A stretch of DNA of 64,000 nt from a virus: positions 1-64,000 of IMG/VR virus record IMGVR_UViG_3300042898_004347, one strand, 5' to 3'. Shown here in pieces: positions 1,715-52,302 of the stretch. Below the pieces are notes generated by a model. The model made no database searches. It saw only the letters and a list, made by a program, of their open reading frames with translations, and was not told the DNA's origin. Each line of letters opens with the position of its first letter. Within the stretch, counting starts at the first letter, position 1. The position numbers and the translations under genes were made by a program.

Positions 1715-1722
1715 TATTTATT
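1715..1722 (-). promoter_or_regulatory. Late promoter AATAAATA for the leftmost fibre
   Basis: AATAAATA reads leftward and matches the NATAAATA late-promoter form of T4-like phages. Only 5 nt separate it from the ATG at 1709, so any transcript starting here would be almost leaderless. It overlaps the stop codon of the upstream fibre gene. Confidence 0.5.
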
Positions 1723-4700
1723 ATTTAGATTCAAGAGCGGCAAGGCGAGCGGTCAGATTGCTGATCAGAGCTTGTTGTTCTTTGATTGCGGCTGTTAAAA
1801 GTGGAACTATATGATCGAACGCCATGCCTAACATTCCATCAGAATCTTCTGTAACCGCCTCTGGTAAAACCGCATTAACATCTTGAGCAAACATAAAAAC
1901 CCGGCGTTTATTAATATCGTCGGTCTTATATTTACCAATGACAGTTCTAAGGGTAGAAACCTTTTCAATTGCATTTTCAATTGGCTCAATGATGTCTTTC
2001 AAGCGTTCATCAGAATAGGTTGTCCAAGCATTATTCCCAGCGGTAAGACGAACACCGACAGCGGTCGAGCTTCCAGAATATACCCGCAACTCTCTTGAAT
2101 TGGAATTTTGACCTATGTAATAGGCTGTCGCATCAAGAAAATGGTAGCCAGTATATCCTGCACCAGTAATGTGAAACTGCGAGGTACTTTCTGTTCTATC
2201 GGTGGCGTCGGTAACATGAAGCCTTCCCGCAGGACTTGCCGTCCCAATGCCGACGTTGCCACCGTTAAAATAAGTTACTCCACTTGCTCTTAATTTTATC
2301 GGTTCTGAATATGTAGGATAAGAACTGTTATATTCGTTAGCAGTAAATGTAACTACCGTTAATTGATCTGCTGAATACCAGCCTCTATTATTATCAGCAA
2401 AAAATGCATTTACTCTTGTTGCACCAGCTGCTGTTTTTTGACCAAACCCCCAAAAGTATCCACTATTATCGCTTATATAACTATCAAATCTAACATATGG
2501 ATAATTATTAGCCATTGGCCCGATTCTTAGATTTGAAGAATTACTTGTGTCTTCGTATTTGAAAGATGCACCTACTACGTGAAAAAGCGCACTAGGACTC
2601 GTCGTCCCAATGCCGACGTTGCCTGTTTTTGAAATCGTCATCCTAACACCCATACTGCCAGCATCTGCGGTGCTAAACGATAGCTTTGTAGATGTATTAG
2701 CATCAATACGTGAGGCAAATATTTCAGCTAGACGAGTTCCCTGATTTCCAAACACCACTCGTCCCAAATCCGCATCAGAAGTACGGTAACCCGCCAACTC
2801 TATCATTCCCATACCCGCTGCACTATTACCTACACTTAGAACTGTGTGGTCAATTCCAATTCCTGTAAAGTTAGGACTCGCCGTCCCAATGCCGACGTTG
2901 CCGTTAGAAATTATACGAACAGCTTCATTAGTTGTGCTGAATGCCAAATAATTTGTTGAGTTGTTAGTAATACCGCTTGCAACAATAGAATTTTTATATG
3001 CGCCTTGCTGTAATACCTGTAATTGATAACCGCCACCTTCGCCGGTAGCAACATTAAATTCAACATTAGCAAACATCTTAACATAATCTGCTTTTGCAGA
3101 TGCTGAATTTAGTCCGCTAAATATAAGTCCAGATAATGCTCCAGCAGAAGCTGTGCTACCTATATCAAGTTTAGCGCTTGGACTTGTCGTACCAATGCCG
3201 ACGTTGCCGCTGCTGTTAATTCGCATACGCTCGGCACTGGCAATTCCAAACACCATATTAGTTCCGCTATTAGTCCAGATGAGAGCATTGCTGATGTTTT
3301 GGAAATAAAGACTGCCGAGACCAGCATTTGCTAATCCACAAGTTGTGCCAGTTGCTGAATTTCCATTTTGATAAAGAATGGAACTTGTATAACTTGGTAC
3401 GCTTGAATAGTCAGAGGCATTTAGATTTATTTGTGAAGCACCAGTAGCAGATGTCCCTGATACAGTAATTGCATTTGTGCTCGTTAGCGATGTGAACGCA
3501 TTTGTATTCGTGAATGTATTTGCTGTACCAAGAATTGATGCACCGCTAATACCTTGAATACCCTGAAGTCCTTGTGCTCCCTGTGTCCCTTGAATTCCTT
3601 GGACACCCTGAATGCCCTGGATACCTTGCACACCTTGAATACCCTGGACACCCGTGATGCCCTGAATACCCTGAATGCCCTGAATACCCTGTGTGGAACT
3701 TGGATCAATATCAACCCATTGTGAGGATGTTCCGTCATAATAATAAATGCGAAGCATACCCACACTTGAATCCCACCAAAGATCACCAGCATTCGGAGAT
3801 GCAGGAGCCGTGTCACTCGTGAGAACATTTGCATTCACACCTGTGATACCCTGAATGCCCTGACGACCCTGAGTTCCCTGTGTACCCTGGACTCCTTGAA
3901 TACCTTGTACACCCTGAGATCCGGTTATACCCTGAATACCTGCACTTCCGGAAAGATCGTCGACAAATGTATAGGAAGATCCGGTCCAAAGATAGAGGCG
4001 CGAGTTCTCCGCGTCTTCCACATTCGTCGTATTAATCAATGCAAATTGACCCGCAACAATTGATGTGGGTGATGTGTCAGCCGTCAATGCGGCAACAGAC
4101 AGATATGTCTTTGCAATGGTAAATGCAAGACCCGTAATACCTTGTAGTCCCTGAGTACCTTGAAGTCCCTGTGCACCCTGCGTGCCTTGAATACCATCAA
4201 ATCCTTGGACTCCTTGAAGGCCCTGAATACCTTGCGTACCCAATGCTCCTTGAATGCCCTGGACTCCTTGCGTGCCTTGAATTCCTTGAATGCCCTGGAT
4301 ACCCTGAACACCTTGGATGCCTTGGATGCCTTGCACTCCCTGAGTACCCTGAATTCCTTGAATACCCTGAATGCCTTGAGGTCCAGTAATACCAGAATTT
4401 GCAGACACCCATTGAGCCGAGGTGCCATCATTATAGTACACCATCAAAATACCAAGATCAGAATTCCACCAAAGATCATTGTCTGAAGGTGACGCGGGTG
4501 CAGTATCCGAAGGAGTAATCTTTGTTCCCTTGAGACCTTGAATACCCTGAGTACCCTGAGTTCCTTGGATGCCCTGTGCACCTTGTGCTCCATTCGAACC
4601 TACAAATCCAGCAAGACCCTGAGTACCTTGTGTACCCTGTGCACCATTCGATCCTACAAATCCCGCAGCGCCTTCTGTGCCTTGTACTCCATTAATGCCT

Positions 4701-7603
4701 TGAACGCCCGCGATGCCCTGAAGACCTTGGATACCCTGTTGACCCTGAGTTCCCTGTGTGCCCGTGATTCCCTGAATGCCCGCGGTACCCGAGAGGTCAT
4801 TCACAAATGTATAAGCGGATCCTGTCCAAAGATATAACCGTGAATTCTCTGGATCGTCTACATTTGCTGTATTGATAAGAGCAAATTGGCCAGCAACGAT
4901 GATTGTCGGAGAAGTGTCCGCAGTCAGTGCCGCAACGGAGGCATAGGTTTTTGCAATTGTAAATGCAAGACCCGTGACACCCTGAGTTCCTTGAACACCC
5001 TGTATTCCTTGGATACCCTGAATACCTTGCTGACCCTGAGTGCCTTGCAATCCTTGAGCGCCTTGCGTTCCTTGCACACCTTGTATTCCTTGAATTCCTT
5101 GAATACCCTGTTCACCCTGTGTGCCTTGTGTTCCCTGAGTTCCCTGGATTCCTTGAACGCCTTGAATGCCTTGTTGGCCCTGTGTGCCTTGCAATCCTTG
5201 TGCGCCTTGAGTCCCTTGAATGCCTTGAACACCCGTGATTCCTTGAATGCCCTGCGTACCCTGCACGCCTTGAATTCCTTGAAGACCCTGCGTGCCCTGA
5301 GTACCCTGCGATCCTGTAATGCCCGCGGTGGCAGATACCCACTGAGAGGTATCGCCATCAAAATAATAAATCATGAGCATACCGCCCACAGAATTCCACC
5401 AAAGATCGTTTAATGATGGAGAGGCTGGAGCCGTATCGGAAATTGTAATTTCAGTTCCTTTGAGACCCTGGATACCCTGTGTACCCTGAGTTCCTTGAAC
5501 ACCCTGTGTACCTTGCGTTCCCTGAAGTCCTTGAATTCCCTGCAGACCTTGAATACCTTGCGCACCCTGAGTTCCTTGCAAGCCCTGTGTTCCTTGTGCA
5601 CCCTGAATGCCCTGCAATCCTTGAATGCCCTGTGTACCCTGAGTTCCTTGCAAGCCCTGGGTTCCTTGTGCACCTTGCGTTCCCTGAACACCTTGTAATC
5701 CTTGGATGCCTTGAATGCCTTGTTGGCCTTGAGTTCCCTGAGTTCCTTGGATACCCTGAATGCCTTGAGTTCCCTGAGTTCCTTGGATACCCTGAATGCC
5801 CTGTGTACCCTGTGTACCTTGTGTTCCCTGAGTTCCTTGGATACCTTGTATTCCTTGAATGCCCTGAATACCCTGTTCACCCTGGGTGCCTTGTGCACCT
5901 TGTGATCCTAGCGTTCCTTGAATACCGGTGAGACCTTGGATACCTTGCGTACCTTGTGCACCTTGTAATCCTTGAGCACCTTGAATACCAGTAAAACCCT
6001 GAATGCCAGTGAGACCTTGAATACCTTGGATACCTTGGAGCCCCTGAGTACCTTGAGCACCTTGAGTACCTTGCCCTCCCGTCCCTCCTACAAATCCAGC
6101 AGTACCCTGAGTGCCTTGAGCACCAGCAGTACCGGATGTCGCACTCACCCACGCAGCGTTTACGCCGTCAGAATAATAGACCATCAACACACCATCAGTC
6201 GAATCAAACCAAAGATCGTCGATTGAAGGTGATGCTGGAGCCGTGTCTGAAGAAATTATTTTTGTTCCCTTGAGACCCTGAATACCTTGTGTTCCTTGAG
6301 CACCTTGTAATCCTTGAGAACCTTGAATACCAGTGATGCCTTGAATACCTTGAATGCCTTGCTCGCCCTGAATGCCTTGCAGACCTTGAGGTCCTTGGAT
6401 ACCTTGGATTCCCTGTGTACCTTGGACACCTTGAATGCCCTGTAGACCCTGAGCGCCTTGAAGACCTTGAATTCCTTGTGTACCTTGCGTTCCCTGAGCT
6501 CCAGTGATACCTTGAATACCGGCTGAGCCTGAAAGATCGTCAACAAAAGTATAGGCGGATCCGGTCCAAATATACAATCTTGAATTCTCTGCATCTTCGA
6601 CATTCGTCGTATTAATGAGAGCAAACTGTCCAGCAATAATTCCTGTTGGAGCCGTGTCTGCATTCAGTGCCGCAACTGAAAGATATGTCTTTGCGATTGT
6701 AAAGGCAAGACCCGTAGTTCCCTGCAGACCTTGTATGCCTTGCGTTCCTTGAATGCCCTGAAGGCCTTGTGCACCTTGAGTTCCTTGAAGGCCCTGTGCA
6801 CCTTGAGTTCCTTGGATACCTTGCACGCCCTGAGTGCCTTGTAATCCTTGTGTTCCCTGAGTGCCTTGGGTTCCTTGAACACCTTGAATTCCTTGTATGC
6901 CTTGGATGCCCTGGATACCCTGTTCACCCTGAGTGCCTTGAGTTCCCTGTGTTCCTTGATTGCCTTGAAAACCCTGAATGCCTTGGATACCTTGTGTACC
7001 CTGCGTGCCTTGAAGTCCTTGGGTTCCCTGCGTGCCTTGAATGCCTTGAATACCCTGCGCGCCACTTGTACCAGAAACTGCCGCAACCCACAATGCAGCA
7101 ACGCCATCATCATAATAAATCATTAACGCTGCATTTTCAGAATCCCACCAAAGATCATTAGCAACAGCGCCAGCTGGAGGAGTATCAGATGTCGTAATCT
7201 TTGTACCTCTGAGACCTTGGATACCTTGTAATCCTTGCGCACCTTGAATACCCTGAATCCCTTGGGTTCCTTGGGTTCCTTGTGTACCCTGAATTCCTTG
7301 GATGCCTTGAATACCCTGTTCGCCCTGAGTGCCTTGTGTTCCTTGTGTTCCCTGCGCGCCTTGCGTACTCTGAGTTCCTTGTACGCCTTGAACTCCCTGC
7401 ACACCTTGAACGCCTTGTAATCCTTGTGTACCCTGAGTGCCTCCACTCTGGTAGTAGAATGTCCCATCCGTATCTGAAACGAGAAAACGCGTGAGTCCCT
7501 GAACACTCTGCAGGCCTTGAACGGCGAGAGTTCCAGTTACGGTTGCGTTACCAGCCACATCAAGGCCGTTTTTGACTTTAAAGTTTTTATCGATAGATGA
7601 CAT
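1721..7603 (-). CDS. Giant collagen-like tail fibre with S74 self-cleaving chaperone domain
   Basis: The product is 1960 aa. Residues ~1-55 form a non-repetitive head. Residues ~55-1330 are collagen-like G-x-Q repeats interrupted by two alternating module types: five copies of a DTAPASP...DLWW...YYxDG...WV module and three copies of an AFTIAKTY...AGQFALINT...WTGS module. A shaft with several [10 protein letters not shown] repeats follows. The C-terminus carries a Peptidase_S74 intramolecular chaperone with the conserved SDERLK Ser/Lys motif and a final coiled coil. In this family the chaperone trimerises the fibre and then cleaves itself off. Proline is almost absent from the collagen repeats. 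A Shine-Dalgarno-like AAGGAA precedes the ATG and a TATAAATA lies 45 nt upstream, so expression is late. The receptor-binding role is inferred. Confidence 0.9.
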
Positions 7604-7648
7604 TCTGTTTCCTTATTTCCACAGAAGGTTACTGAGCAGTTATTTTGC

Positions 7649-7656
7649 TATTTATA
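7649..7656 (-). promoter_or_regulatory. Late promoter TATAAATA for giant fibre gene
   Basis: A perfect TATAAATA reads leftward, 45 nt before the ATG at 7603 and inside the short gap after the neighbouring fibre gene. This one allows a normal leader with a ribosome-binding site. Confidence 0.7.
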
Positions 7657-7712
7657 ACATTCTAGGTGATTGTAATTGTATCTCCGTCTTTTACCTGAAT
7701 TTATTACGAGCC

Positions 7713-9323
7713 TTATGGCGACGGCATCAAAGCTTTCAATTCTTTTTTCAGTTGATCCACTTTATCGCTAAGAGCTTTAATAGCTTCTATTAGAACCGGC
7801 GTAAAGCGCGAATAGTCAATTGAATCTGGCTTTCCATTTTTATATCCCACAACGCTTGGTAATACTCGTGCCACATCCTCAGCAATGACTCCATGCTCTC
7901 GAGACTTATAACCGTCTTTTCTATCGTAGATGACTCCATTCAGATTTTTAATTAAATCAATTGCGTCTTCGATCGGAGTAACATTCATCTTGTATGCGAT
8001 GGATGATGTAGCATTAAAGCTACCAGCAGTGACACTACTAAATGTGACAGAATTGTATGTGTTTAAATCTTGATTGGCTCCGGGACCTGGAGAACCGTTT
8101 GTGCCATTCGTACCTGCAGTACCTTGAGCACCAGGCCCGCCATTATTACCATTCGTACCTGCAGTACCTTGAGCACCAGGCCCGCCATTATTACCATTCG
8201 TACCTGCAGTACCTTGAGCACCAGGCCCGCCGTTCGTACCGTTTGTGCCATTACTACCTGCTGTACCTATCGTACCTTGAGCACCGTTTGTGCCATTCGT
8301 GCCATTACTACCATTTGCGCCTGCAGTACCTTGAGCACCGTTTGTGCCATTCGTACCATTTGCGCCTGCAGTACCTTGAGCACCGTTTGTGCCATTCGTG
8401 CCATTACTACCATTTGCGCCTGCAGTACCTTGAGCACCGTTTGTGCCATTCGTACCATTACTACCTGCTGTACCTATTGTACCTTGAGCACCATTCGTAC
8501 CGTTTGTACCATTACTACCTGCTGTACCTATTGTACCTTGAGCGCCCGTCACACTTGTACCAATCGTACCCTGAATGCCCGTGAGGCCTTGAACACCCTG
8601 TATTCCTTGGATACCCTGAAGACCTTGAGTCCCTTGTGCACCTTGAGTTCCGATTGCACCCTGCGTTCCATTGCCTCCTTGAAGTCCCTGTATTCCCTGA
8701 AGGCCTTGAGTTCCTTGAGCACCTTGAGTGCCCTGAATACCAGTGAGACCTTGAATTCCTTGAGTACCTTGTAATCCTTGAGTACCCTGTGCACCTTGTA
8801 ATCCTTGTGCACCTTGAATACCTGTAAGGCCCTGTGAACCAGTGATACCTTGAATACCCGCCGAACCTGAAAGATCGTCAACGAAGGTGTAAGCTGATCC
8901 TGTCCAAATATACAATCGAGAATTTTCAGCATCCTGAACGTCTAGCGTATTAATAAGAGCAAACTGTCCAGCAATAATACTCGTGGGTGATGTATCCGCG
9001 GTAAGTGCAGCAACAGAAACATAAGTTTTTGCAATGGTAAAGGCGAGACCAGTAGTACCTTGAAGACCTTGAATGCCCTGCAGACCTTGAGTTCCCTGTG
9101 CACCTTGAATTCCAAGTAGTCCTTGCAATCCTTGAATACCCTGTGTACCTTGTAATCCTTGAATACCTTGGATGCCTTGCGCACCCTGAATGCCTTGGAT
9201 ACCCTGAACACCCGTTGCGCCGCCATTATAAGCTACCCACGAGGTTCCGTCCCAGATCCATGACGTGCCATTCGCGGAATAAACTTGACCGACTGTTGAG
9301 GGTGTTGGAAAATTGAGTGCCAT
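7713..9323 (-). CDS. Collagen-like tail fibre with S74-type C-terminal domain
   Basis: The product is 536 aa. It begins [16 protein letters not shown], a [11 protein letters not shown]-type anchoring head, then G-x-Q collagen-like repeats, one AFTIAKTY...AGQFALINT module like those in the giant fibre, and a second collagen block made of TGxNG and TAGANGTNG repeats. The C-terminal ~100 residues are an S74-like chaperone ([42 protein letters not shown]) ending in a coiled coil. The SSIAYK segment supplies the expected Ser and Lys. It is probably a trimeric fibre. The module shared with the giant fibre indicates duplication or recombination between the fibre genes. It is driven by the TATAAATA at 9356. 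Confidence 0.88.
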
Positions 9324-41733: not shown

Positions 41734-42669
41734 TTAATCTTCCTTTGCAAGTTTTGCAAAGTAGCTGAGGGTATCATCCTCTTTTCCTTCGTCATCGTCA
41801 CTGCCTGCCTCAACAGGCTTAAATGATTCCCTCTGCGGTGCTGCTGCAGGAGTTGCGGCATACCGAGGAGCAGAAGCAGTGGTATCAAGCTCAACCGATT
41901 CAGCGGTTGAAAGAACTTGACCTTCTTCACCCAGGACTTCAAGAAGCTTACGCTTCAATTCATCATAGGACTTGTAATTCTTTGCATCAGTGAATTCCTT
42001 CAGCTGATTCAATTGATTATAGATCTGTTCAAGCTTTGCTTCATCACCGCCAAAGAGGGGTGAAATCGAAGCGAATTCGGATTTGTCATAGTTACGGTAA
42101 CCTTCGACATTACGAATCTTCAGTTTAAAATCCGCACCGGCCCAGAAGTCAAATGGATTGACTGGCTTTTCATCTTGGAAAGATGGCTGCATAAGATCCA
42201 GCATCTTGTCAAAGATTTTCTTACCGAATTTGTAAAGGAAAACCTTTCCATCATTTGCAGGATTGGCTGGATCGGAGATTACCAGAATGTTTGTGACATA
42301 GTGGAGACGGCGCTTACGTGAACGTACGAGATCTTGATCTTCCTGACGTCCAGTTGCCCAGAGTTTAGTATTCAGCTCGCCAACAGGATCAGGCTGGCCG
42401 ATCGAGGTGAGAGAATTTTCGATGTACCAACGACCGCTTGGGCCTTTGAAGCCATGGTCCCAATAACGGACCCATGGAAGTTCTTCACCTTTTGGGGTGG
42501 GAAGGAAACGAATAACGGCATAACCATTACCCGCCTTGTCTACGACTGGTGACCAGAAACGATCATCGTTATAGGATTTCTTCTCTTGGCTTCCTCCAAC
42601 TTTTTGGGCCTGGGCGGTAAGCTTAGTGATTTCGTTTGCACGATTCTTTTTGAGATCTGCGAATGACAT
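41734..42669 (-). CDS. 32: Single-stranded DNA-binding protein gp32
   Basis: The product is 311 aa (T4: 301). The N-terminal cooperativity domain (FADLKKNRANEITKLTAQAQ) is followed by the OB-fold core (DDRFWSPVVDKAGNGYAVIR; FLPTPKGEELPWVRYWDHGF; FGKKIFDKMLDLMQ) and an acidic C-terminal tail (VEAGSDDDEGKEDDTLSYF). The Cys/His zinc ligands of T4 gp32 are absent in the corresponding region (NSLTSIGQPDPVGEL). gp32 coats single-stranded DNA and binds gp59 through its acidic tail; gp59 is the next gene upstream in the same block. Confidence 0.9.
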   Translation of the reverse strand: MSFADLKKNRANEITKLTAQAQKVGGSQEKKSYNDDRFWSPVVDKAGNGYAVIRFLPTPKGEELPWVRYWDHGFKGPSGRWYIENSLTSIGQPDPVGELNTKLWATGRQEDQDLVRSRKRRLHYVTNILVISDPANPANDGKVFLYKFGKKIFDKMLDLMQPSFQDEKPVNPFDFWAGADFKLKIRNVEGYRNYDKSEFASISPLFGGDEAKLEQIYNQLNQLKEFTDAKNYKSYDELKRKLLEVLGEEGQVLSTAESVELDTTASAPRYAATPAAAPQRESFKPVEAGSDDDEGKEDDTLSYFAKLAKED

Positions 42670-42718: not shown

Positions 42719-43339
42719 TTATTCCCTATTTGTAAACCCTAAAAGCACGATTTCTCGCAACTTTTTTATGTCTACTTTCTGTTTGAGGAATGGCTTAAAC
42801 TTCAGAACTTTCTTGGAAAACTCGGGCCATAGAATGGTCTCTGTAATCTTTGAGCGTTTCATAAAGCCCACCATAATGTCTAGAACTACCAAGGTTTCAA
42901 GCTCAATAGTTTTGTCCATCACCAATGTGGCAATTCGTGGATGAGCACCATTCTCAGACTTAAATAAGTCATCGAATGAAAGCCCACTACCCTTACATTG
43001 CCCCACCAGTCTGTCTACTTGATCCGCAAAGAAATAACTCATCGATTCTATCCTTTTCAGATAGAACTTGTAGTTATCCTCTGCAGACTGTTCGACTAGA
43101 TTGCCCGCCCAGCACTTACTCGTATCCAAGGATGCGAAGTTTGCGACCAGGAAGTCAATCAAAATCTGTTTGTCAGGATACTTCTTGGCCAATTTAGCAA
43201 AGAAGTATTTGTCCTTACGTTGAAAGAACGACTTCTGAGTTGCAGAAGTCTTAAAACTGTATTTGATCGCGTCATAAGAATCGCTCTCAAAATGTAGTTT
43301 GATACTATTATATATCAGGTAGGCGTCCCAGGGCTGCAT
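42719..43339 (-). CDS. 59: Helicase loader gp59
   Basis: The product is 206 aa (T4: 217). It is basic and helical. YDAIKYSFKTSATQKSFFQR and KDKYFFAKLAKKYPDKQILI match the T4 gp59 pattern YDVIKYNW...RRDKYFFQKLSEKY, and ILWPEFSKKVLKFKPFLKQ the later part. gp59 loads the replicative helicase gp41 onto gp32-covered DNA. It lies between gp32 and an unknown gene, overlapping the latter by 25 nt. Confidence 0.85.
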   Translation of the reverse strand: MQPWDAYLIYNSIKLHFESDSYDAIKYSFKTSATQKSFFQRKDKYFFAKLAKKYPDKQILIDFLVANFASLDTSKCWAGNLVEQSAEDNYKFYLKRIESMSYFFADQVDRLVGQCKGSGLSFDDLFKSENGAHPRIATLVMDKTIELETLVVLDIMVGFMKRSKITETILWPEFSKKVLKFKPFLKQKVDIKKLREIVLLGFTNRE

Positions 43340-43895: not shown

Positions 43896-44126
43896 TTAAA
43901 TAAAACTCGAAAGTGAATTGTTCTTTGGAAGTAGATTTGCAGACATTGCTTCTGCCTCAATCTTTGCTTTAATTGTGGGACCAATCAACTTGCCAATGTC
44001 TAATGGATCAATGAGGCGTTCGTTACAGATATGCAGGACAGCCTCCATATAGGTCATCTTCTCGGTGTGAACAAGGTTCTCCACAAGTTGTGTTACGATG
44101 GCTTTTGTCAGGATGTTGTCGAGCAT
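43896..44126 (-). CDS. 33: Late transcription co-activator gp33-like
   Basis: The product is 76 aa. The helical core TEKMTYMEAVLHICNERLID followed by PLDIGKLI and KAKIEAEAMSANLL fits the short gp33 proteins of marine T4-like phages (T4 gp33 is 112 aa). gp33 bridges RNA polymerase and the sliding clamp at late promoters together with sigma factor gp55. The many NATAAATA boxes in this window need such a system. gp55 and the clamp are not in the window. Confidence 0.6.
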   Translation of the reverse strand: MLDNILTKAIVTQLVENLVHTEKMTYMEAVLHICNERLIDPLDIGKLIGPTIKAKIEAEAMSANLLPKNNSLSSFI

Positions 44127-44484: not shown

Positions 44485-45732
44485 TTATAGTATTCTGAGG
44501 AGCACAATGTCGCCATTGATACGCCCATTTGGTTTTGCAATCTTTGTGGTGAGTTGAGTCCACGCCTTTTCAAGTTGTTTCTCTGTGCTTCCTACAGCAA
44601 TAGGAATGAATTCATCGGGCTTACGGAGACGGATACAGCGGGAGGCTACCTCATCATAGTTCTGGATTGTAGTACCTTTGATGATAAAACCACCTGTCAC
44701 AGTGGCAACATAGTCAAACAATATCCGAGTCTTTACGTTAAAGGCGAGGAGCCGGTAGGCGCCGACAATCCGAATAGGATTGATTGAGGTAATCTTGAAT
44801 TCCTCGCTATGCTTAAGGTACTGGAGCTTTGCAATCTGCTTTGTGGCAGCCGTGGGTTTCTTCTCACGCGGCACCTTGGCAGCCTTGACGCTCGTTTTAA
44901 ACATTGTGAGATCATCAATCATTGTGGCCAGAGCATCAATGCGCATGAGCAGTTGCTTCTTCGTATAAAAACTATACGCTTCAGCAAGATACTCACTGGC
45001 GCCCGTGTGGGCATCAGTCATTTCATTCAGCAACTTCTTAAGATAGTCTTCCACAAAAGTGCATGCTGCAGCAGGAAGTTCATACTGCTGCATCGTCTTA
45101 TAGACTGGAATGACTCGTACTTCATTAGCAGAGTCGCACCATTCGTCCATAAGCACATCAAGATCCATAATCATGGTCCTTGTGCATTTGGCCTTGAGGC
45201 GATCCATCGGAGAAATACCAGCTGGCTTTTCAGCAATAATAGTTTCCACTGCATCTCGATGTTTCAGCTTTTTGCCTTCAAAGATTGAAGTGGCAATTGC
45301 TTCTTTCACAAAGATGTCGCAGGCAATCTGAGGTAATGCATCGCTCCGAAGTGACTTAAGGTAGTCATTGATTCCAGGATGAAATGTTGGCATTCCTTTA
45401 TTCATGCAGGTACAAAGAGTACCTGCCGTCATACCAGGAGAATAATCTGGAGCAGCTTTCACTGCAGAAATATCTTCCTTCGTGTAACCATTGTTGACCA
45501 TCCATTCTAGCACGGCTGGCTTGCTGTCCTTTGCGGTGGAGTAATAGTTGTAGAAATTAAAGGACCGAGAATACTCCTTCCAGAATTGTTCTACTGGCCA
45601 GGTCTCCCAACCATCCCAGATTGGCTCCTCACCTGTGTAGCGGGAGTCGACCGCAGCAATGCCATGGTTCGACTTTCGACCTTTCTTACGGTTCTTTGCC
45701 GCAGCAGATTTGAGTATGTGATCGACGGACAT
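44485..45732 (-). CDS. Hypothetical 415-aa protein in replication block
   Basis: I use ATG 45732 (MSVDHILKSAAAKNRKKGRK), 1 nt after the preceding stop, instead of a longer start inside that gene. The N-terminus is basic. The middle contains HPGINDYLKSLRSDALPQIA and a helical region (YTKKQLLMRIDALATMIDDL, then TMFKTSVKAAKVPREKKP). The C-terminal ~120 residues look beta-rich. No catalytic motif is visible. Similar proteins sit near gp33 in T4-like marine phages without known function. Confidence 0.5.
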   Translation of the reverse strand: MSVDHILKSAAAKNRKKGRKSNHGIAAVDSRYTGEEPIWDGWETWPVEQFWKEYSRSFNFYNYYSTAKDSKPAVLEWMVNNGYTKEDISAVKAAPDYSPGMTAGTLCTCMNKGMPTFHPGINDYLKSLRSDALPQIACDIFVKEAIATSIFEGKKLKHRDAVETIIAEKPAGISPMDRLKAKCTRTMIMDLDVLMDEWCDSANEVRVIPVYKTMQQYELPAAACTFVEDYLKKLLNEMTDAHTGASEYLAEAYSFYTKKQLLMRIDALATMIDDLTMFKTSVKAAKVPREKKPTAATKQIAKLQYLKHSEEFKITSINPIRIVGAYRLLAFNVKTRILFDYVATVTGGFIIKGTTIQNYDEVASRCIRLRKPDEFIPIAVGSTEKQLEKAWTQLTTKIAKPNGRINGDIVLLRIL

Positions 45733-45733
45733 A

Positions 45734-45997
45734 TTAGAGGGTCTCAATAGAGGTAACTGAATCCACTCGGAAAGAGCGCCAGCCCTCATTATCGACGTCG
45801 TACACGCGAACTGTGTCTTCCGACAGATTCAGATTCAGTTTCTTCTCACCCTTGGGCATAAGGTCACCAGGAATAATAGAAGCATCCAGAGTTCCACGAA
45901 GTGCCCGAGCCGTACCATCAACCTTAGTAAAGTTGATCAGTACCAGATTATTATTTTTCAGCGTATCCTTGATTTCAGCGTATGTGTATTTTTTCAT
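45734..45997 (-). CDS. DUF2693-type SH3-barrel protein
   Basis: The product is 87 aa. LVLINFTKVDGTARALRGTL, then SEDTVRVYDVDNEGWRSFRV, match the small DUF2693 SH3-like barrel found in T4-like phages. Such proteins probably bind nucleic acid or protein, but no function is established. It begins an operon driven by an early promoter whose -10 ends 9 nt before the ATG, and the structured RNA at 46,041 lies just upstream. Confidence 0.65.
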   Translation of the reverse strand: MKKYTYAEIKDTLKNNNLVLINFTKVDGTARALRGTLDASIIPGDLMPKGEKKLNLNLSEDTVRVYDVDNEGWRSFRVDSVTSIETL

Positions 45998-46006
45998 TAT
46001 GTAGAT

Positions 46007-46035
46007 ATATTAAAGTGAATTCAGTCAAATGTAAA
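46007..46035 (-). promoter_or_regulatory. Early promoter TTTACA - 17 bp - TAATAT
   Basis: Leftward -35 TTTACA (46035-46030) and -10 TAATAT (46012-46007), with the ATG at 45997 9 nt further on. TTGTTG precedes the -35, as at two other early promoters in this window. Confidence 0.6.
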
Positions 46036-46040
46036 CAACA

Positions 46041-46165
46041 AAAGCATCGTTTCAAAGGAGCCTACTCAAAGAAGATTCTTTATAAGAGATAAACCACCAT
46101 GAGTGGTCGTAGTTGATCGATGATCTACTTCTGAGTGAAAGTAAGCTCTTTTGAAACGATGCTTT
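46041..46165. ncRNA. Candidate structured RNA with 21-bp closing stem and multibranch core
   Basis: 46041-46061 pairs with 46145-46165 over 21 positions with one G-U (plus strand) or A-C (minus strand). Inside, ACTCA/TGAGT and AGAAG/CTTCT form a second stem (46064-46074 with 46128-46136). Three hairpins lie within it: TCTT-TAT-AAGA (46077-46087), ACCAC-CATGA-GTGGT (46093-46107) and GATC-GAT-GATC (46115-46125). No open reading frame fills it. A leftward AATAAATA box ends 7 nt before the stem, which favours the minus strand, and a T-rich tail (TTTTGTTGTTT) follows on that strand. The G-U pairs favour the plus strand. The strand is therefore undecided. Confidence 0.6.
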
Positions 46166-46172
46166 CAGAGGT

Positions 46173-46180
46173 TATTTATT
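46173..46180 (-). promoter_or_regulatory. Late-promoter-like AATAAATA in front of structured RNA
   Basis: AATAAATA reads leftward and overlaps the stop codon of the endolysin gene. No ATG follows within 9 nt, unlike most such boxes here; instead the 21-bp stem of the structured RNA begins 7 nt downstream, where transcription would start. Confidence 0.45.
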
Positions 46181-46616
46181 ACTTTAGGTTTTTGTAGACC
46201 TTGGCCCAATAGGCTTCAAGGTTCTTTTGCTTGGTGTCGGACATTGGAGAAGCCACTCGGCGCCAAGAACCACCGCCACCGTTCCAGATGAAGCCGAGTT
46301 CTTTCTCAGTGGCTTTACGGTTCGTGGTTTTTTCAATGTGTTTCGAGTAAAAATTCAGAACCCCTTTGGCGACTTCACGAGATGTGATTTCGTCAAACAT
46401 GTCCGCATGCCTGTAATTCTTACCCGTGATGCGGTTGAAGTCCTGGACCATCACCGCGTGAATCTGAAGGATTCCAAGCGCCTTACCGCGGTCGCCGATG
46501 GCAGCAGCGTTACCGTTGCTTTCGGTACGAACCAGCGCTTCCACCAAGCGGTCAATATTTTGACCCGAAACGGTAGCGGTAAGGGCAAGAATTGCGACGA
46601 TATGTTTGACTTTCAT
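46179..46616 (-). CDS. Exported endolysin, lysozyme / transglycosylase-like
   Basis: I place the start at ATG 46616 (MKVKHIVAILALTATVSGQ), giving 145 aa; the longer version would begin upstream of the -10 box. The N-terminal ~18 residues are a signal peptide. The mature part carries the goose-lysozyme/SLT pattern: VEALVRTESNGNAAAIGDRG then KALGILQIH, with Glu32 as the likely catalytic acid, and ends with WNGGGGSWRR. It should cut peptidoglycan for lysis. Export through the host Sec system would make it a secreted endolysin. The hub protein gp5 lacks lysozyme, so this is the recognisable muralytic enzyme in the window. An early-type promoter precedes it. Confidence 0.75.
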   Translation of the reverse strand: MKVKHIVAILALTATVSGQNIDRLVEALVRTESNGNAAAIGDRGKALGILQIHAVMVQDFNRITGKNYRHADMFDEITSREVAKGVLNFYSKHIEKTTNRKATEKELGFIWNGGGGSWRRVASPMSDTKQKNLEAYWAKVYKNLK

Positions 46617-47033: not shown

Positions 47034-49073
47034 TCACTTTGAAGTAGCTCTAAAAACTCCATCCCAGGATGGTCCAGGATCCGCTTTTTCTAGGTCAGCA
47101 ATGCGTTCCAGCATCATGTCGTAGTAATCATTGAGGAAATCCATGTGAGCTTTTAAATCAACTCCCAATTCTTTTGCTTTTTTCCAATTGCGCTCCCGAT
47201 AGTAAGTCATGAAACTGTCATGGGATTTGCTGTAGACGCGTGTGCCCTTTTCAAATACCGTGTAAATCTTCACACCTTCTTTCTTACCCTTTACCGCGAT
47301 GCAATCTAGTTCTAGCGTGGGATACACGTCCTTCACATATTCTCGCGTGATGGGACCAATTACAAATTTGACGCCGTAGGGCTTCGACTGACCTTCCAAG
47401 CGAGAGGCAAGATTCACCGAATCTCCGAGGCAGGTATAATCGAACCGTTGAGTCGAGCCCATATTACCCACAACAACGGTACCAGTATTCACGCCGAGAC
47501 CCATTCCGAATGCAGGAATACCTTCCTTCGTCACCTCATCGTTGAATGCTTTCAGACTTCCTAGCATTGTGAGACCCGTTTCAACCGCATGAAGAGCATG
47601 GTCCTTGTCGTCGAGTGGTGCGTTCCAGAAAGCCATCTGTGCATCACCAATGTACTTGTCCAGCGTTCCCTGACTATCCAGAATGGCCTGTGTCATTGCC
47701 GTCATATACCGATTCATAATCTTTGTGAGACCCTGAACGTCCTTGCCATAGTGTTCCGAGATTGCGGTGAAGCCACGAACATCTGTAAACATGATTGATA
47801 GCTCTCGAGACTCGCCTCCCAACTGTAAGAGGTCGGGATTCTTTTGCAGTTTCTCAACCATGGCTGGAGATAGGTACGTTCCGAACTGTTTCTTGATCTG
47901 CTGCTTGAGTTTAAACTCCATGACGAACCGCATGAAGAGAGAACCAGTCCATACAAGGGATGCGGTACCCACAACCCAGGTATAGTCGGCAAGGAGTCCT
48001 TTATCGAATAAATGAAAGCCGTAATACACTGGAAGGCATACGGCAATAAGATAGATGCCAAGATTTAAGGCGTAGCCCAAAAAGGAGATTGCTCCGATTA
48101 GAATAAGTGCTGCACCCACACCAATTGCAATCTCGTAAAGATCGAACTCTGCTGGGCGTTCAAGTCGGTTACCATCGAGCAACATCTGAAGTGTTTGGAG
48201 ACTGAGTTCGTGTCCGTACGCCGTACCCAATGGAGTCGCAACGGTATTTGCAAGCCCCTCGGCCGTAAGAGCGATCACTACAATCTTGTCCTTCACGTGC
48301 CATTCATCATCGGTGTATGGAACTGATTTAAAGGTATATTTAAAGTTGATCCAGACGCGACCATTGCCATCAGTCTTAATTGGCGGCGTACCAGGGACGC
48401 GAATGGCAGACACTCCCGATTCTGTTACCTTAACCTGAAAGCTGGGTTGGTTACCAAAGACACGGAGGATTTCCAGTGGCATTGTGGGATACTTTTCTTT
48501 TTCAATCTGAATCATGAGCGGTAATCTACGCACCACGCCATCAAGCTCTGGAGCCGTCAATAACATACCCACGCCCGTGGACGCCTCACCAATCTCTTTG
48601 AGTGGTCCGATTGCAGCTGGGTAATCAAATAGCCAGTCATCCGTCGTGCCGCCGATTGTTGCAACGCCTCTTGGAATTGGAACGCCTTTACCCTTTAATG
48701 ACGCCGATTGACCCGTAATTACAGGAGCCTGACTCAGCATCTCAATAAATTCCTTATCTCCGCCAAGACGGTCGGGTTCCGCGAAAATAATAGGTAGCAC
48801 AACACCGGTGGCGCCTGACTCCATGGCTTTTCTGATTGCGCCTGCCAGTTCGGTACGCTTCCATGGCCACTGTCCGTTCTTTTCCAGTGCCTTTTCATCA
48901 ATTTCCACGATCACAATGTTATCCGATACCACCTTGTCCTGCTTTCTCTGATAGTAATCCAGACCTTTGAGACGCATTACCTCGATTGGATACGGGTTTG
49001 CAATGCGGAGACCCACGGCAACTGTGAGAAGCATAAGACCAACAAGAAGGATTCTGAATGTGTGTTTGTTCAT
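47034..49073 (-). CDS. CHASE2-domain class III adenylate cyclase
   Basis: The product is 679 aa. Residues 9-22 form a membrane span. Residues ~25-310 are an extracytoplasmic CHASE2 sensor (IVIVEIDEKALEKNGQWPW; the region near 280-295). Three further spans lie at ~313-385. Residues ~415-610 are a class III cyclase domain with both metal aspartates (Asp431 in FTDVRGFT; Asp477 in KYIGDAQMAFW), Lys473 for adenine, Thr547 in FDYTCLGD, and transition-state Asn554 and Arg558 in VNLASRLE. All expected catalytic residues are present, so it should make cAMP. It overlaps the FecR gene by 4 nt; such FecR-cyclase pairs are common in proteobacterial genomes but unusual in a phage. It is the last gene of the curli-like operon. 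Confidence 0.92.
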   Translation of the reverse strand: MNKHTFRILLVGLMLLTVAVGLRIANPYPIEVMRLKGLDYYQRKQDKVVSDNIVIVEIDEKALEKNGQWPWKRTELAGAIRKAMESGATGVVLPIIFAEPDRLGGDKEFIEMLSQAPVITGQSASLKGKGVPIPRGVATIGGTTDDWLFDYPAAIGPLKEIGEASTGVGMLLTAPELDGVVRRLPLMIQIEKEKYPTMPLEILRVFGNQPSFQVKVTESGVSAIRVPGTPPIKTDGNGRVWINFKYTFKSVPYTDDEWHVKDKIVVIALTAEGLANTVATPLGTAYGHELSLQTLQMLLDGNRLERPAEFDLYEIAIGVGAALILIGAISFLGYALNLGIYLIAVCLPVYYGFHLFDKGLLADYTWVVGTASLVWTGSLFMRFVMEFKLKQQIKKQFGTYLSPAMVEKLQKNPDLLQLGGESRELSIMFTDVRGFTAISEHYGKDVQGLTKIMNRYMTAMTQAILDSQGTLDKYIGDAQMAFWNAPLDDKDHALHAVETGLTMLGSLKAFNDEVTKEGIPAFGMGLGVNTGTVVVGNMGSTQRFDYTCLGDSVNLASRLEGQSKPYGVKFVIGPITREYVKDVYPTLELDCIAVKGKKEGVKIYTVFEKGTRVYSKSHDSFMTYYRERNWKKAKELGVDLKAHMDFLNDYYDMMLERIADLEKADPGPSWDGVFRATSK

Positions 49074-50224
49074 TTCTGAATGATGTTTACTTTAAGTTTG
49101 TCTCCGAAGTTGAGTGGATATACCGTAGTTCCATTCGAGTCGGTAATCTTAAACGTTGCGCTTGTGTCTGCTTTTAATTTATAGTGAATGACTCCTTTGG
49201 ATGTGGAAAGATTCATTATTGCGTTTGTGCCGTCCGTAGTAAATCCATTATTGACCGTTGACGTCACAATGAGCGATGGTAATGGACTTGCCGCTGTTGC
49301 AACCGTGACCTCTGGATTTTTAAAAATGACTTCTGCTACGGCCTGAAGTAGCTCGGGCTGCATTGCCTTTACATCGATGATGGCTGTTTTAGTTTCTTCC
49401 ACAGGCTTTTCTTCAGCCTTAACCTGAGTAGACGTACTAGGTTCAACCTGAGCAACCGCAGTAGCGGAATCACTCTTGCCGCTTGATTTTTTGTTTGGTT
49501 TATCATCGGCCGATTCGGATGTGTTTGCCTGTGTCTGCTTTTTGGCTTCCTTTACCGCACTTGTGACGGGTTTCGGAGTCTCAACAAGAATCAGGTTATT
49601 GATTTTGCTTTCATCTTGAAAGTTAAGTATGACGGGATTTGTAGGAGCGGACTGCATTGACGCAATAAAGGTCGCCTGATATGCCTGAGTCATAAGGACA
49701 CTTCCTGCTACATTTGACACCTCGATAACTCCCACGGTTCCAGGAGTTGCGCTATATTCGGGCCGCGAAGGAAGTAGAATGATGAGACTCTTACCATCCT
49801 CGGAGACGGTCATTGAAAAATCCGTACCACGAACAGAAATCTTTGCGGTAGGAGTTTGAACCTTAATGTTCTCTCTACTATTCTTTGCAATCATACCCGA
49901 TGCATAACGAACGGTACCGAATGCCGTCTTCATTGAGACCTTACCCTTACCGCTCGCAGGATCATACACGAATTCATCAATCTTGAGCTTCGAGAACTCA
50001 GTGATCTGCATTACTGTATGATCCTCGAATTCAATGGATACCCGAGCCTTTAAGGTCTCGATGGTATCATCCTGCTCTATCTCCGTGCCAACCTTACCTT
50101 CTAACTTATCCTTGCCACGAACAATCTGAGTGGGACCAGTAACCTCGGTCAGTTTCCCGACCGAGGCACTGGCTTCAGATATAAAAATAACCGCAAACAA
50201 AAACAGTGCTGCGGCTATGCGCAT
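49070..50224 (-). CDS. Periplasmic FecR-domain protein
   Basis: The product is 384 aa. Residues 1-20 are a signal peptide cleaved near ISEASA. Residues ~45-150 form a FecR domain: GTEIEQDDTIETLKARVSIE, then MKTAFGTVRYASGMI and KISVRGTDFSMTVSEDGKSL. A Lys/Ser/Glu-rich low-complexity linker (~215-290) and a small beta-rich C-terminal domain follow. There is no membrane anchor, unlike FecR of the iron-citrate system. FecR-domain proteins of this sort often precede CHASE2 cyclases and may present a periplasmic signal to the CHASE2 domain. It overlaps the cyclase by 4 nt and lies 3 nt after the curlin-like gene. Confidence 0.8.
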   Translation of the reverse strand: MRIAAALFLFAVIFISEASASVGKLTEVTGPTQIVRGKDKLEGKVGTEIEQDDTIETLKARVSIEFEDHTVMQITEFSKLKIDEFVYDPASGKGKVSMKTAFGTVRYASGMIAKNSRENIKVQTPTAKISVRGTDFSMTVSEDGKSLIILLPSRPEYSATPGTVGVIEVSNVAGSVLMTQAYQATFIASMQSAPTNPVILNFQDESKINNLILVETPKPVTSAVKEAKKQTQANTSESADDKPNKKSSGKSDSATAVAQVEPSTSTQVKAEEKPVEETKTAIIDVKAMQPELLQAVAEVIFKNPEVTVATAASPLPSLIVTSTVNNGFTTDGTNAIMNLSTSKGVIHYKLKADTSATFKITDSNGTTVYPLNFGDKLKVNIIQK

Positions 50225-50227
50225 ACA

Positions 50228-51028
50228 TTAGGGAGTCGGAGGCGAAATCGTCGCTGTTGGATTTGCGGCGCCGTAGTTCGAGGATCCCGTAGTCATAATA
50301 GGAGCAGCAGCCGTTGTGGTCTGGATAATCTGAACGGTATTATTACTACCAGTTAAATTATAGACGAGCTTCTGCTGTTCTATTCCAGCTTGATAGACGG
50401 TGAGGTTATTCGTGCTACCCAGGATGGTAACATCTTGATAATGTCCGCCTTTCTGAGTTGATGCGCCAACGCTTCCGATCTGAGTTGATTTTACGATATT
50501 TGAACTACCGGTAATGTTATAATCAATCCAGTTGAATGAAGCATTTTCGAATCCGAATTTCATCGTGTTCGAGCTACCAACAACATCAATGGTGACATCG
50601 CTGTCCGCAATGGTCGCCTTTGACGTATCGACCTCGGAGGTATGATCCACGGTCACATCTTTATTCACGGTTATTGAATTCGTGCTTCCGACCAACGACA
50701 CGTTGAATGTGTTGTTGGCACCGTTCATGAAGTATTTCTGAGTGTTCGTATTACCCGTGGCAACAGCGAGCAAGCTCAGATTGTTGGCTCCGATAATAGA
50801 GAAGTCAGTACTGTTGCTATTTCCCATCTGACGCGTTTCAAAGGTAATGTTATCGCCAGTGATGTCGCTTGCAACTCCAGAGGAGCCGATTCGATTCAGG
50901 CTGCCGACCTGAATTAGGGTTGTGGAACCCGCGGTTGTGATTTGATTCACATATATCTGATTCTGGGCAAAGGCTGGAGTTAATAGCATAAGCCCAAGAA
51001 TGAATCCTAGTTTTAGTTTTGTTTTCAT
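50228..51028 (-). CDS. Curlin-like amyloid subunit
   Basis: The product is 266 aa. Residues 1-21 are a signal peptide ending AFAQ. The mature protein has eleven G-x-x-N motifs (at residues 42, 69, 80, 92, 103, 114, 151, 174, 204, 227, 248). Those at 69-114 are spaced 11-12 residues, later ones about 21-30. This is the two-strand, roughly 22-residue period of curlin repeats (S-x5-Q-x-G-x2-N-x5-Q), with flanking Gln and Asn in several copies (IQVGSLNRIG, VQIIQTT). It overlaps the CsgG-like gene by 4 nt, so the expected outer-membrane exporter is made with it. It is longer and less regular than CsgA (151 aa). Amyloid formation is predicted, not shown. Confidence 0.75.
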   Translation of the reverse strand: MKTKLKLGFILGLMLLTPAFAQNQIYVNQITTAGSTTLIQVGSLNRIGSSGVASDITGDNITFETRQMGNSNSTDFSIIGANNLSLLAVATGNTNTQKYFMNGANNTFNVSLVGSTNSITVNKDVTVDHTSEVDTSKATIADSDVTIDVVGSSNTMKFGFENASFNWIDYNITGSSNIVKSTQIGSVGASTQKGGHYQDVTILGSTNNLTVYQAGIEQQKLVYNLTGSNNTVQIIQTTTAAAPIMTTGSSNYGAANPTATISPPTP

Positions 51029-51840
51029 TTCTTTTTAGCGTTATTGTTGGTTGTGTCTTTGAATTGCCAAAGACCTGCTGTTTGCCCCTGTTTTACGATT
51101 TCGATGACTGCCTGATCAATAGCGCTCCGGACGGCAATGCCATTCGGTTCATTTGCAGTGAGACCAAGTTCTGACTCAATCGGGGTTGTTCCGTGATCAT
51201 AAAATTTAAATAGATTGCCCGAGAGGGCAATACTCGTAATTGTTTTAGTAACAGCTACGCTCAGAAGGACCTCTCCTGTTTGAACGCTTACAAGCCTCAG
51301 TGACACTGTTACTACGTCCTTACGATATTGAGTGCTGCTGGAGATGCCAAGAACACTGGCGCCCGCGCCTCCCGTAAGGATATTGCTATCATATCCGATA
51401 ATACCGCCCTGCGCAATAACGCCGGCAAATAACATCGGGGTGAGTTTCTCGGCGTCTTTACCGAGGAAAGTTTCTCTTGTCTGTGAAATAAGTTGGCGTT
51501 CCTTAATAATGTCGTCAAGGCTCGCACGTTCGAGTACCTGAAACCACGTGCCATTACTTGCAAGACGTAATGCATCAATGAGCCAGCTCTCTGCGCCCTG
51601 CGTGACGGCAGAAGAGAATGTGGCATACGCGTCTGCGGTCTTTCTCTGTCCCGTTTTATCCGCAAAACCATAGACTGCAATTGTCATCCGAGGACCATCA
51701 ATTGGAGGAAGTTCTAATAGCTGTTTCGCCATTGGAGACATTTGTACCTTCGGGGTCTCGAGGATGCCGGGCTTGGATGGAACCGAAGCACAACCCCCGA
51801 ACAACAAAGATAGTAAGAGTATGGAGAGGAATTTAACCAT
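51025..51840 (-). CDS. CsgG-like curli secretion pore lipoprotein
   Basis: The product is 271 aa (E. coli CsgG: 277). The N-terminus is a lipoprotein signal with a lipobox-like LLFGGC ending at Cys17. The body follows CsgG closely: MTIAVYGFADKTGQRKTADA, TFSSAVTQGAESWLIDALRL, WFQVLERASLDDIIKERQLI, then GGIIGYDSNILTGGAGASVL, matching the constriction and barrel segments, and a C-terminal SAIDQAVIEIVKQGQTAGLW. CsgG forms a nonameric outer-membrane channel for unfolded curlin. It lies between the CsgF-like and curlin-like genes. Its target must be the outer membrane of a Gram-negative host. Confidence 0.9.
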   Translation of the reverse strand: MVKFLSILLLSLLFGGCASVPSKPGILETPKVQMSPMAKQLLELPPIDGPRMTIAVYGFADKTGQRKTADAYATFSSAVTQGAESWLIDALRLASNGTWFQVLERASLDDIIKERQLISQTRETFLGKDAEKLTPMLFAGVIAQGGIIGYDSNILTGGAGASVLGISSSTQYRKDVVTVSLRLVSVQTGEVLLSVAVTKTITSIALSGNLFKFYDHGTTPIESELGLTANEPNGIAVRSAIDQAVIEIVKQGQTAGLWQFKDTTNNNAKKK

Positions 51841-51843
51841 TGA

Positions 51844-52302
51844 TCAGCCACCGCCTGGATTCAATGTTCCTACGGGAACTTGAATAGTTGTAGTATTGCC
51901 GGTTACAGGATCAACAATGTAGAGAGTCACCATATCGCCATTCTTTTGCCATGTGACGGTAGATCCGCCTTGAAGATTAATGATGCCAAAGTTTGCTCCG
52001 TTGGAGTTAAAGATGGCATCCGTGACCTGAGAAGCTAGTTGAGAATAGATTCGAGCCTGCAGGTTATTAATGAATGCATTAAGCGGGGTATTCTGTGCCG
52101 TAACTTTTGCAGTTTCAGCATCTGCTTTTGCCTGATCTTTGAATGATTGCTTTCGGGTGCGTGCAAGGTTCTCAATGGTGATTTCATGGGAAGAAAACCC
52201 AATGCCGTTAAACATTGGAGACTTAAAACCATGCACCATATCCGATGCAAAGACGACCTCAGGGAGGAGGCAGAGAAGTAGAAGTAGGAGCAGGTTTTTC
52301 AT
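51844..52302 (-). CDS. CsgF-like curli assembly protein
   Basis: I use ATG 52302 (MKNLLLLLLLCLLPEVVFAS), giving 152 aa with a clear signal peptide. The mature N-terminus MVHGFKSPMFNGIGFSS follows the CsgF pattern F-x-x-P-x-F-x-G, the part that in E. coli plugs into the CsgG channel. NAFINNLQARIYSQLASQVT fits the middle helix, and TLYIVDPVTGNTTTIQVPVG the C-terminal strands. CsgF (138 aa in E. coli) couples secretion to nucleation at the cell surface. It lies 3 nt before the CsgG-like gene. No csgE homologue was found. Confidence 0.85.
   Translation of the reverse strand: MKNLLLLLLLCLLPEVVFASDMVHGFKSPMFNGIGFSSHEITIENLARTRKQSFKDQAKADAETAKVTAQNTPLNAFINNLQARIYSQLASQVTDAIFNSNGANFGIINLQGGSTVTWQKNGDMVTLYIVDPVTGNTTTIQVPVGTLNPGGG

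Follow-up and report, generated by a model that had tools for sequence, protein, structure and literature searches.

A new structured RNA family of uncultured T4-like phages, probably encoded by a late small-RNA gene of its own

A 125-nt element in the genome of a T4-like phage represents a new RNA family, one that is real and that, judged by comparison of its sequences, is most plausibly a late small-RNA gene in its own right. The window analysed here (64,000 nt) comes from a virus record of 140 kb in IMG/VR, IMGVR_UViG_3300042898_004347, and carries the T4-type genes for gp32 (41734-42669), gp59 (42719-43339) and a gp33-like late coactivator (43896-44126). Few small RNAs are known from virulent phages, and those of T4, described in the 1970s, are without known function (PMC4933390). 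The family reported here is diverse and well supported; it can be described by a covariance model, its boundaries and promoter-like box are defined, and there is a candidate for a protein partner. Given a host or a synthetic system, the model, the boundaries and the candidate partner make the question of what late phage RNAs do a testable one.

Conserved fold and covariation

The first-pass annotation described a near-perfect inverted repeat closing a second stem and a core with three inner hairpins. The repeat is present, with AAAGCATCGTTTCAAAAGAGC (46145-46165, minus strand) facing GCTCCTTTGAAACGATGCTTT (46041-46061) over 21 positions with one A.C mismatch, and it does continue inward into the second stem. 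The minus strand folds at -48.7 kcal/mol (z -8.6) and the plus strand at -47.7 kcal/mol (z -6.2), and none of 200 shuffles folds as well in either case. All three inner hairpins appear in the minimum-energy fold; comparison with relatives upholds the middle one (46092-46108), while the other two are not conserved. What is conserved in the RNA, as aligned, is only the long outer stem, one inner hairpin (HB) and a short inner helix (P3) (Table 1).

Table 1. Features of the RNA locus and its flanking genes, in window positions
Feature	Positions	Strand	Basis
Structured RNA, 125 nt	46041-46165	minus	fold, covariation, match to model R1
P1, 5' strand, 16 nt	46150-46165	minus	covariation
P1, 3' strand	46041-46056	minus	covariation
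P2, 5' strand, GAGCUUACUU	46139-46148	minus	covariation
P2, 3' strand, GAGUAGGCUC	46058-46067	minus	covariation
Conserved core, GAAGUAGAUC; the GAAG within it is the P3 5' strand	46122-46131	minus	alignment
P3, short helix, GAAG/CUUC	46128-46131 with 46071-46074	minus	alignment
HB, inner hairpin, GACCAC/GUGGUU	46092-46108	minus	alignment
Conserved unpaired linker, ending in AUAAAG	46078-46091	minus	alignment
SLT-domain transglycosylase-like protein, upstream gene	46179-46616	minus	gap borders at 46179
WYL_2 (PF10902, formerly DUF2693), 87 aa, Sm-like SH3 barrel, downstream gene	45734-45997	minus	next gene in 24/25 loci
Late-promoter box, AATAAATA (family form RATAAATA), overlapping the SLT stop codon	46173-46180	minus	27/27 members
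T-rich tail, putatively intrinsic-terminator-like, overlapping the -35 hexamer	46029-46040	minus	T count
Putative sigma70-like promoter of the WYL_2 gene, TTTACA-N17-TAATAT	46007-46035	minus	hexamers

Several dozen IMG/VR contigs from an uncultured T4-like clade of bacterial viruses have a homologue in the syntenic position. Syntenic loci were found through the neighbour proteins together with a stem pattern, a search that returns true relatives along with chance matches to a single arm, and many more members came from distant relatives whose syntenic gap was scanned for a long inverted repeat. Choosing members in part by that scan favours P1/P2 pairing, but does not bear on HB, P3 or the core sequence. 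The members form seven sequence groups (A, A2, B, C, D, E and F) whose outer stems are almost wholly different in sequence, and across the groups the core is recognisable as GAGCYYAYUUC ... AAGUAGAUC ... GGCC hairpin ... AUAAAGCAUACUUC ... GARRUAGGCUC. Extra matches to the core pattern lie in coding sequence or fail the covariance model R1, and the three pattern matches in bacterial genomes do not fit R1 either. No reading frame inside the RNA is conserved across family members.

Covariation in homologues, proposed from the outset as the check on this fold, is strong: compensatory double changes occur at 24 of 37 pairs. The counts come from alignment A6, comprising 23 distinct sequences and a structure of P1+P2 (28 pairs), P3 (5) and HB (4); set A7 was left out because it includes antisense matches. 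Pairing holds in 92.0% of cells, against 75.9% in shuffles and 33-49% when the structure is slid along the alignment, and 117 cells are double-changed against 30.9 in shuffles; on every measure, 0 of 500 shuffles score as high. An independent prediction by RNAalifold also contains P1, P2 and HB, and 21 of the 27 pairs in it show double changes. For HB and P3, where the register of a few rows was corrected by hand, the row counts differ in strength. All four HB pairs form in 23 of 23 rows, three of them changed on both sides (relatives carry GGCC/GGCC, GACC/GGUC or GUC/GAC). The central pair of P3 is G-C in every one of the 23 rows, and at the next pair 14 rows have U-A, 3 rows from two lineages have C-G and 6 have a mismatch, so that P3 is only moderately supported by the alignment as a real helix. 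Taken over its relatives, comparative analysis confirms the minus strand of 46041-46165 as a conserved structured RNA.

The core also contains an AAGUAG (46125-46130, minus) that resembles GAGUAG in the P2 3' strand (46062-46067) and could pair with the P2 5' strand. This alternative pairing was considered as a strand switch and rejected for want of covariation, with no double changes and 316 of 500 shuffles equally good.

Model R1 finds the window RNA at 46044-46160 on the minus strand with 94.9 bits, against 44.3 on the plus strand. In each member for which both strands were scored the sense strand comes out far ahead, a gap that amounts to consistency only, the sense strand being what the model was trained on. 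R1 finds one locus per record, and no second copy was found in the phage's own genome. Other loci from phages and bacteria, about 985 kb in all, contain no match at E<=1; in the seven annotated phage genomes phiM12, DLP_6, OC, PA5oct, S-RIM50, Pet-CM3-4 and C48C1 R1 finds nothing better than E about 0.5, and it does not match the loci of more distant WYL_2, SLT or 415-aa relatives. Within the collections searched, these results confine the family to the uncultured T4-like clade with the same synteny.

Gene order, promoter-like box and strand

The RNA lies in a gap of 181 nt between two minus-strand genes, which is gene-free as originally described, running from the end of the SLT gene to the start of the WYL_2 gene. 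At 46 kb it stands outside the phage tRNA cluster, the window tRNAs being at 62-64 kb. Lineages that retain as little as about 45-50% identity in their SLT and 415-aa proteins still share one order: SLT, late box, RNA, T-rich tail, sigma70-like promoter, WYL_2. Close relatives have RNAs 93-99% identical and neighbours that are more diverged: nucleotide identities for the RNA, SLT and WYL_2 are 92.8%, 88.2% and 53.6% in L016, and 99.2%, 86.1% and 72.9% in L014. In some close relatives the sequence directly before the late box is unrelated and the alignment is intact from the box onward, so that the promoter and RNA behave as a unit. (Upstream of L103:5467 (plus), L114:2967 (minus) and L033:4819 (plus), SLT and the promoter-RNA unit have unrelated sequence between them that is probably an additional gene.) In L158 the RNA is present without WYL_2, and the next gene is the 415-aa gene. 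Together, the unrelated upstream sequences and L158 show the unit to be independent of either neighbour.

Several other features of these loci may be recorded here. The 415-aa protein (phrog_11903; 44485-45732, minus) is tied to the RNA gene neighbourhood and has distant relatives in rhizobial, pseudomonad and stenotrophomonad phages. A sub-threshold tRNA-like match lies just upstream of the RNA's late box at L222:2068-2124, and a clear tRNA lies upstream of the SLT gene at L239:44-115. Elsewhere in the window this T4-like phage carries a curli-like cluster (47034-52302, minus) with CHASE2 plus cyclase (47034-49073), FecR (49070-50224), CsgG (51025-51840), CsgF (51844-52302) and a protein judged by eye to have curlin-like repeats (50228-51028), and at 1721-9323 (minus) two fibre-like proteins, of 1960 and 536 aa, that contain very long stretches of collagen-like GTQG/GIQG repeats.

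The late-promoter-like box AATAAATA ends 7 nt before the stem, as the first-pass annotation had it, and no other WATAAATA occurs on either strand from 37.5 to 53.3 kb. RATAAATA lies 4-20 nt upstream of the RNA in all 27 members examined, an arrangement expected by chance at about 0.1% per locus for a box within 45 nt; the canonical TATAAATA takes this place in none. The TATAAATA boxes of the window stand mostly just before structural genes, as expected of T4-type late promoters, so that the RNA box departs consistently at its first base from the form used there. On the 3' side of the stem the T-rich tail TGTTGTTTAC is likewise present, and the first 10 nt after the RNA contain 5-8 T in the window and in 25 of 25 relatives tested. 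Most relatives have -35/-10-like hexamers comparable to those of the window at the same place (TTTACA-N16-TATAAT in L154/L155), followed by the start codon of the next gene. WYL_2 start codons fall about 10 nt after the sigma70-like -10, with no Shine-Dalgarno; a near-leaderless early WYL_2 mRNA is suggested by this spacing.

Early indications on the strand were divided. Promoter placement had been held to favour the minus strand, and the box upstream in 27 of 27 members agrees. The G-U argument for the plus strand rests on the outer mismatch (A.C on the minus strand, G.U on the plus) and is outweighed by other positions: on the minus strand 12 pair positions show G-U-type variation and 6 show A.C-type. 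Pairing is also somewhat better on the minus strand (93.2% of cells against 90.8%). With the late box and the T-rich tail (25/25), we regard the minus strand as settled on these sequence features.

A putative late RNA gene and its alternatives

The minus strand of 46041-46165 is probably (at roughly 70%) a self-contained T4-like phage gene for a late small RNA that acts in trans. Late transcription from RATAAATA would start no more than a few nucleotides from the outer stem, the transcript would fold with a closing stem of P1+P2 around a core of P3, HB and the unpaired GUAGAUC and AUAAAG, and transcription would end at the stem and U-rich tail; an end there suggests that the stem also shields both ends of a stable RNA of ~125-150 nt. 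Late in infection this RNA would act in trans through its conserved core, which most likely binds a protein; a protein partner seems likelier than pairing with an mRNA because most of the constraint falls on structure and a compact core. Comparison establishes the conserved structure, its strand, the promoter-like and terminator-like borders, the synteny and the presence of one copy; we infer transcription, its late timing, action in trans and the existence of a partner. Late transcription is supported by the gp33-type late coactivator that the phage encodes, and there is precedent in the late small RNAs of the virulent myovirus PAK_P3 and the band C/D RNAs of T4 (PMC4933390). Counting against a stand-alone gene are the first base of the late box and the adjacency of WYL_2, which in 24 of 25 loci follows the RNA within 38-62 nt and would also fit the leader of a read-through mRNA.

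That leader reading, which we consider unlikely, makes the RNA the 5' leader of a late WYL_2 transcript, in which the P1/P2 stem and U tail end or pass transcription, or control WYL_2 translation, perhaps by binding the WYL_2 protein itself. It draws on the adjacency just given, on an Rfam motif (DUF2693-FD) named after the same protein domain, and on the protein. For the superfamily of WYL-type Sm-like barrels, binding of nucleotides or of nucleic-acid fragments has been predicted (PMC4012209), and the predicted WYL_2 model (pLDDT 85.9; a helix and five strands) has weak structural matches that include BrxR, PafBC, CapW, DriD and Hfq. A sequence search of solved structures with WYL_2 gave no significant match. 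A competing hairpin between the P2 5' strand and the internal AAGUAG is possible in most groups, but has the lack of covariation reported above, and the Rfam motif does not match the RNA. With a sigma70-like promoter between the RNA and WYL_2, and one phage (L158) in which the RNA is not upstream of WYL_2 at all, the locus looks like a self-contained late small-RNA gene and not a leader; these two features, the late box and the T-rich tail make a pure leader role less likely. WYL_2 is nonetheless our guess as the leading candidate for the RNA's protein partner. That the two form a phage ribonucleoprotein, with the RNA as ligand of the Sm-like WYL barrel, is a doubtful proposal. If true, it could mean control of host defence or of late phage expression, for instance, and WYL_2/DUF2693, a domain that is common in T4-like phages, would then be a family of RNA-binding partners.

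It is improbable that the RNA has no separate function and only forms the 3' side of the SLT mRNA, as a terminator or a structure processed by RNase. Most genomes do have it straight after SLT, and its stem and T tail are terminator-like, but a plain terminator needs no conserved inner core, no HB and no late box of its own, and in several genomes the probable extra gene intervenes. A long inverted repeat found once per genome might also be a DNA-level element, such as a replication origin or a recombination or packaging site forming a cruciform; this is very improbable, as the promoter box and T tail are conserved with fixed polarity, G-U-type variation exceeds A.C-type on one strand, and unpaired core motifs are conserved. 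An apparently late, structured, single-copy and long-stemmed RNA could be a virion or packaging RNA with a role like that of phi29 pRNA, but no Rfam family matches it, phage pRNA included. T4-like packaging motors, to our knowledge, need no RNA, and we give this role hardly any credence.

Comparison with known RNAs

The initial impression that the RNA belongs to no recognised family is borne out by Rfam 15, in which cmscan found no family in the window RNA at the gathering cut-off. At E<=10 around the window RNA and in L050, and at E<=1 in nine other member loci, there are only chance matches, or tRNAs outside the RNA; such a test reaches only families deposited in Rfam. No paper on the family was found in a literature search that did not cover the candidate-RNA survey in NAR 2017 (doi 10.1093/nar/gkx699), and some chance is left that the family is described there under another name.

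The RNAs of T4 known as rnaC and rnaD (species 1 and 2, or band C and D RNAs) are small stable RNAs of unknown function (PMC4933390), annotated at 139 and 119 nt. Unlike the window RNA they are encoded in the tRNA cluster, and their predicted fold differs. Run with filters off on the 4-kb rnaC-rnaD stretch of T4, R1 reaches at best 12.6 bits, outside the RNA genes, and nothing above 5 bits inside them (rnaC, 4.5 bits). Similar by description are sRNA1 and sRNA2 of PAK_P3, intergenic small RNAs of a virulent myovirus from a different phage group that are strongly expressed late (PMC4933390). Structured RNAs are also known from T4-like phages (manA, wcaG) and from a cyanophage (PhotoRC-II), where they may be the 5' leaders of genes for metabolism or photosynthesis (PMC2864571); none of these cyanophage RNAs has a cmscan match in the window RNA or in members. 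DUF2693-FD (RF02926) is, like the window RNA, a structured RNA associated with DUF2693, that is, WYL_2. The association holds in 24 of 25 loci and is insufficient alone for membership in RF02926, whose model has 49 positions and finds no match in the window genome; a directed search of related records gave one sub-threshold match of 11.3 bits, elsewhere in one contig. Alongside RF02926, the family reported here is a second structured RNA with a link to the WYL_2/DUF2693 domain.
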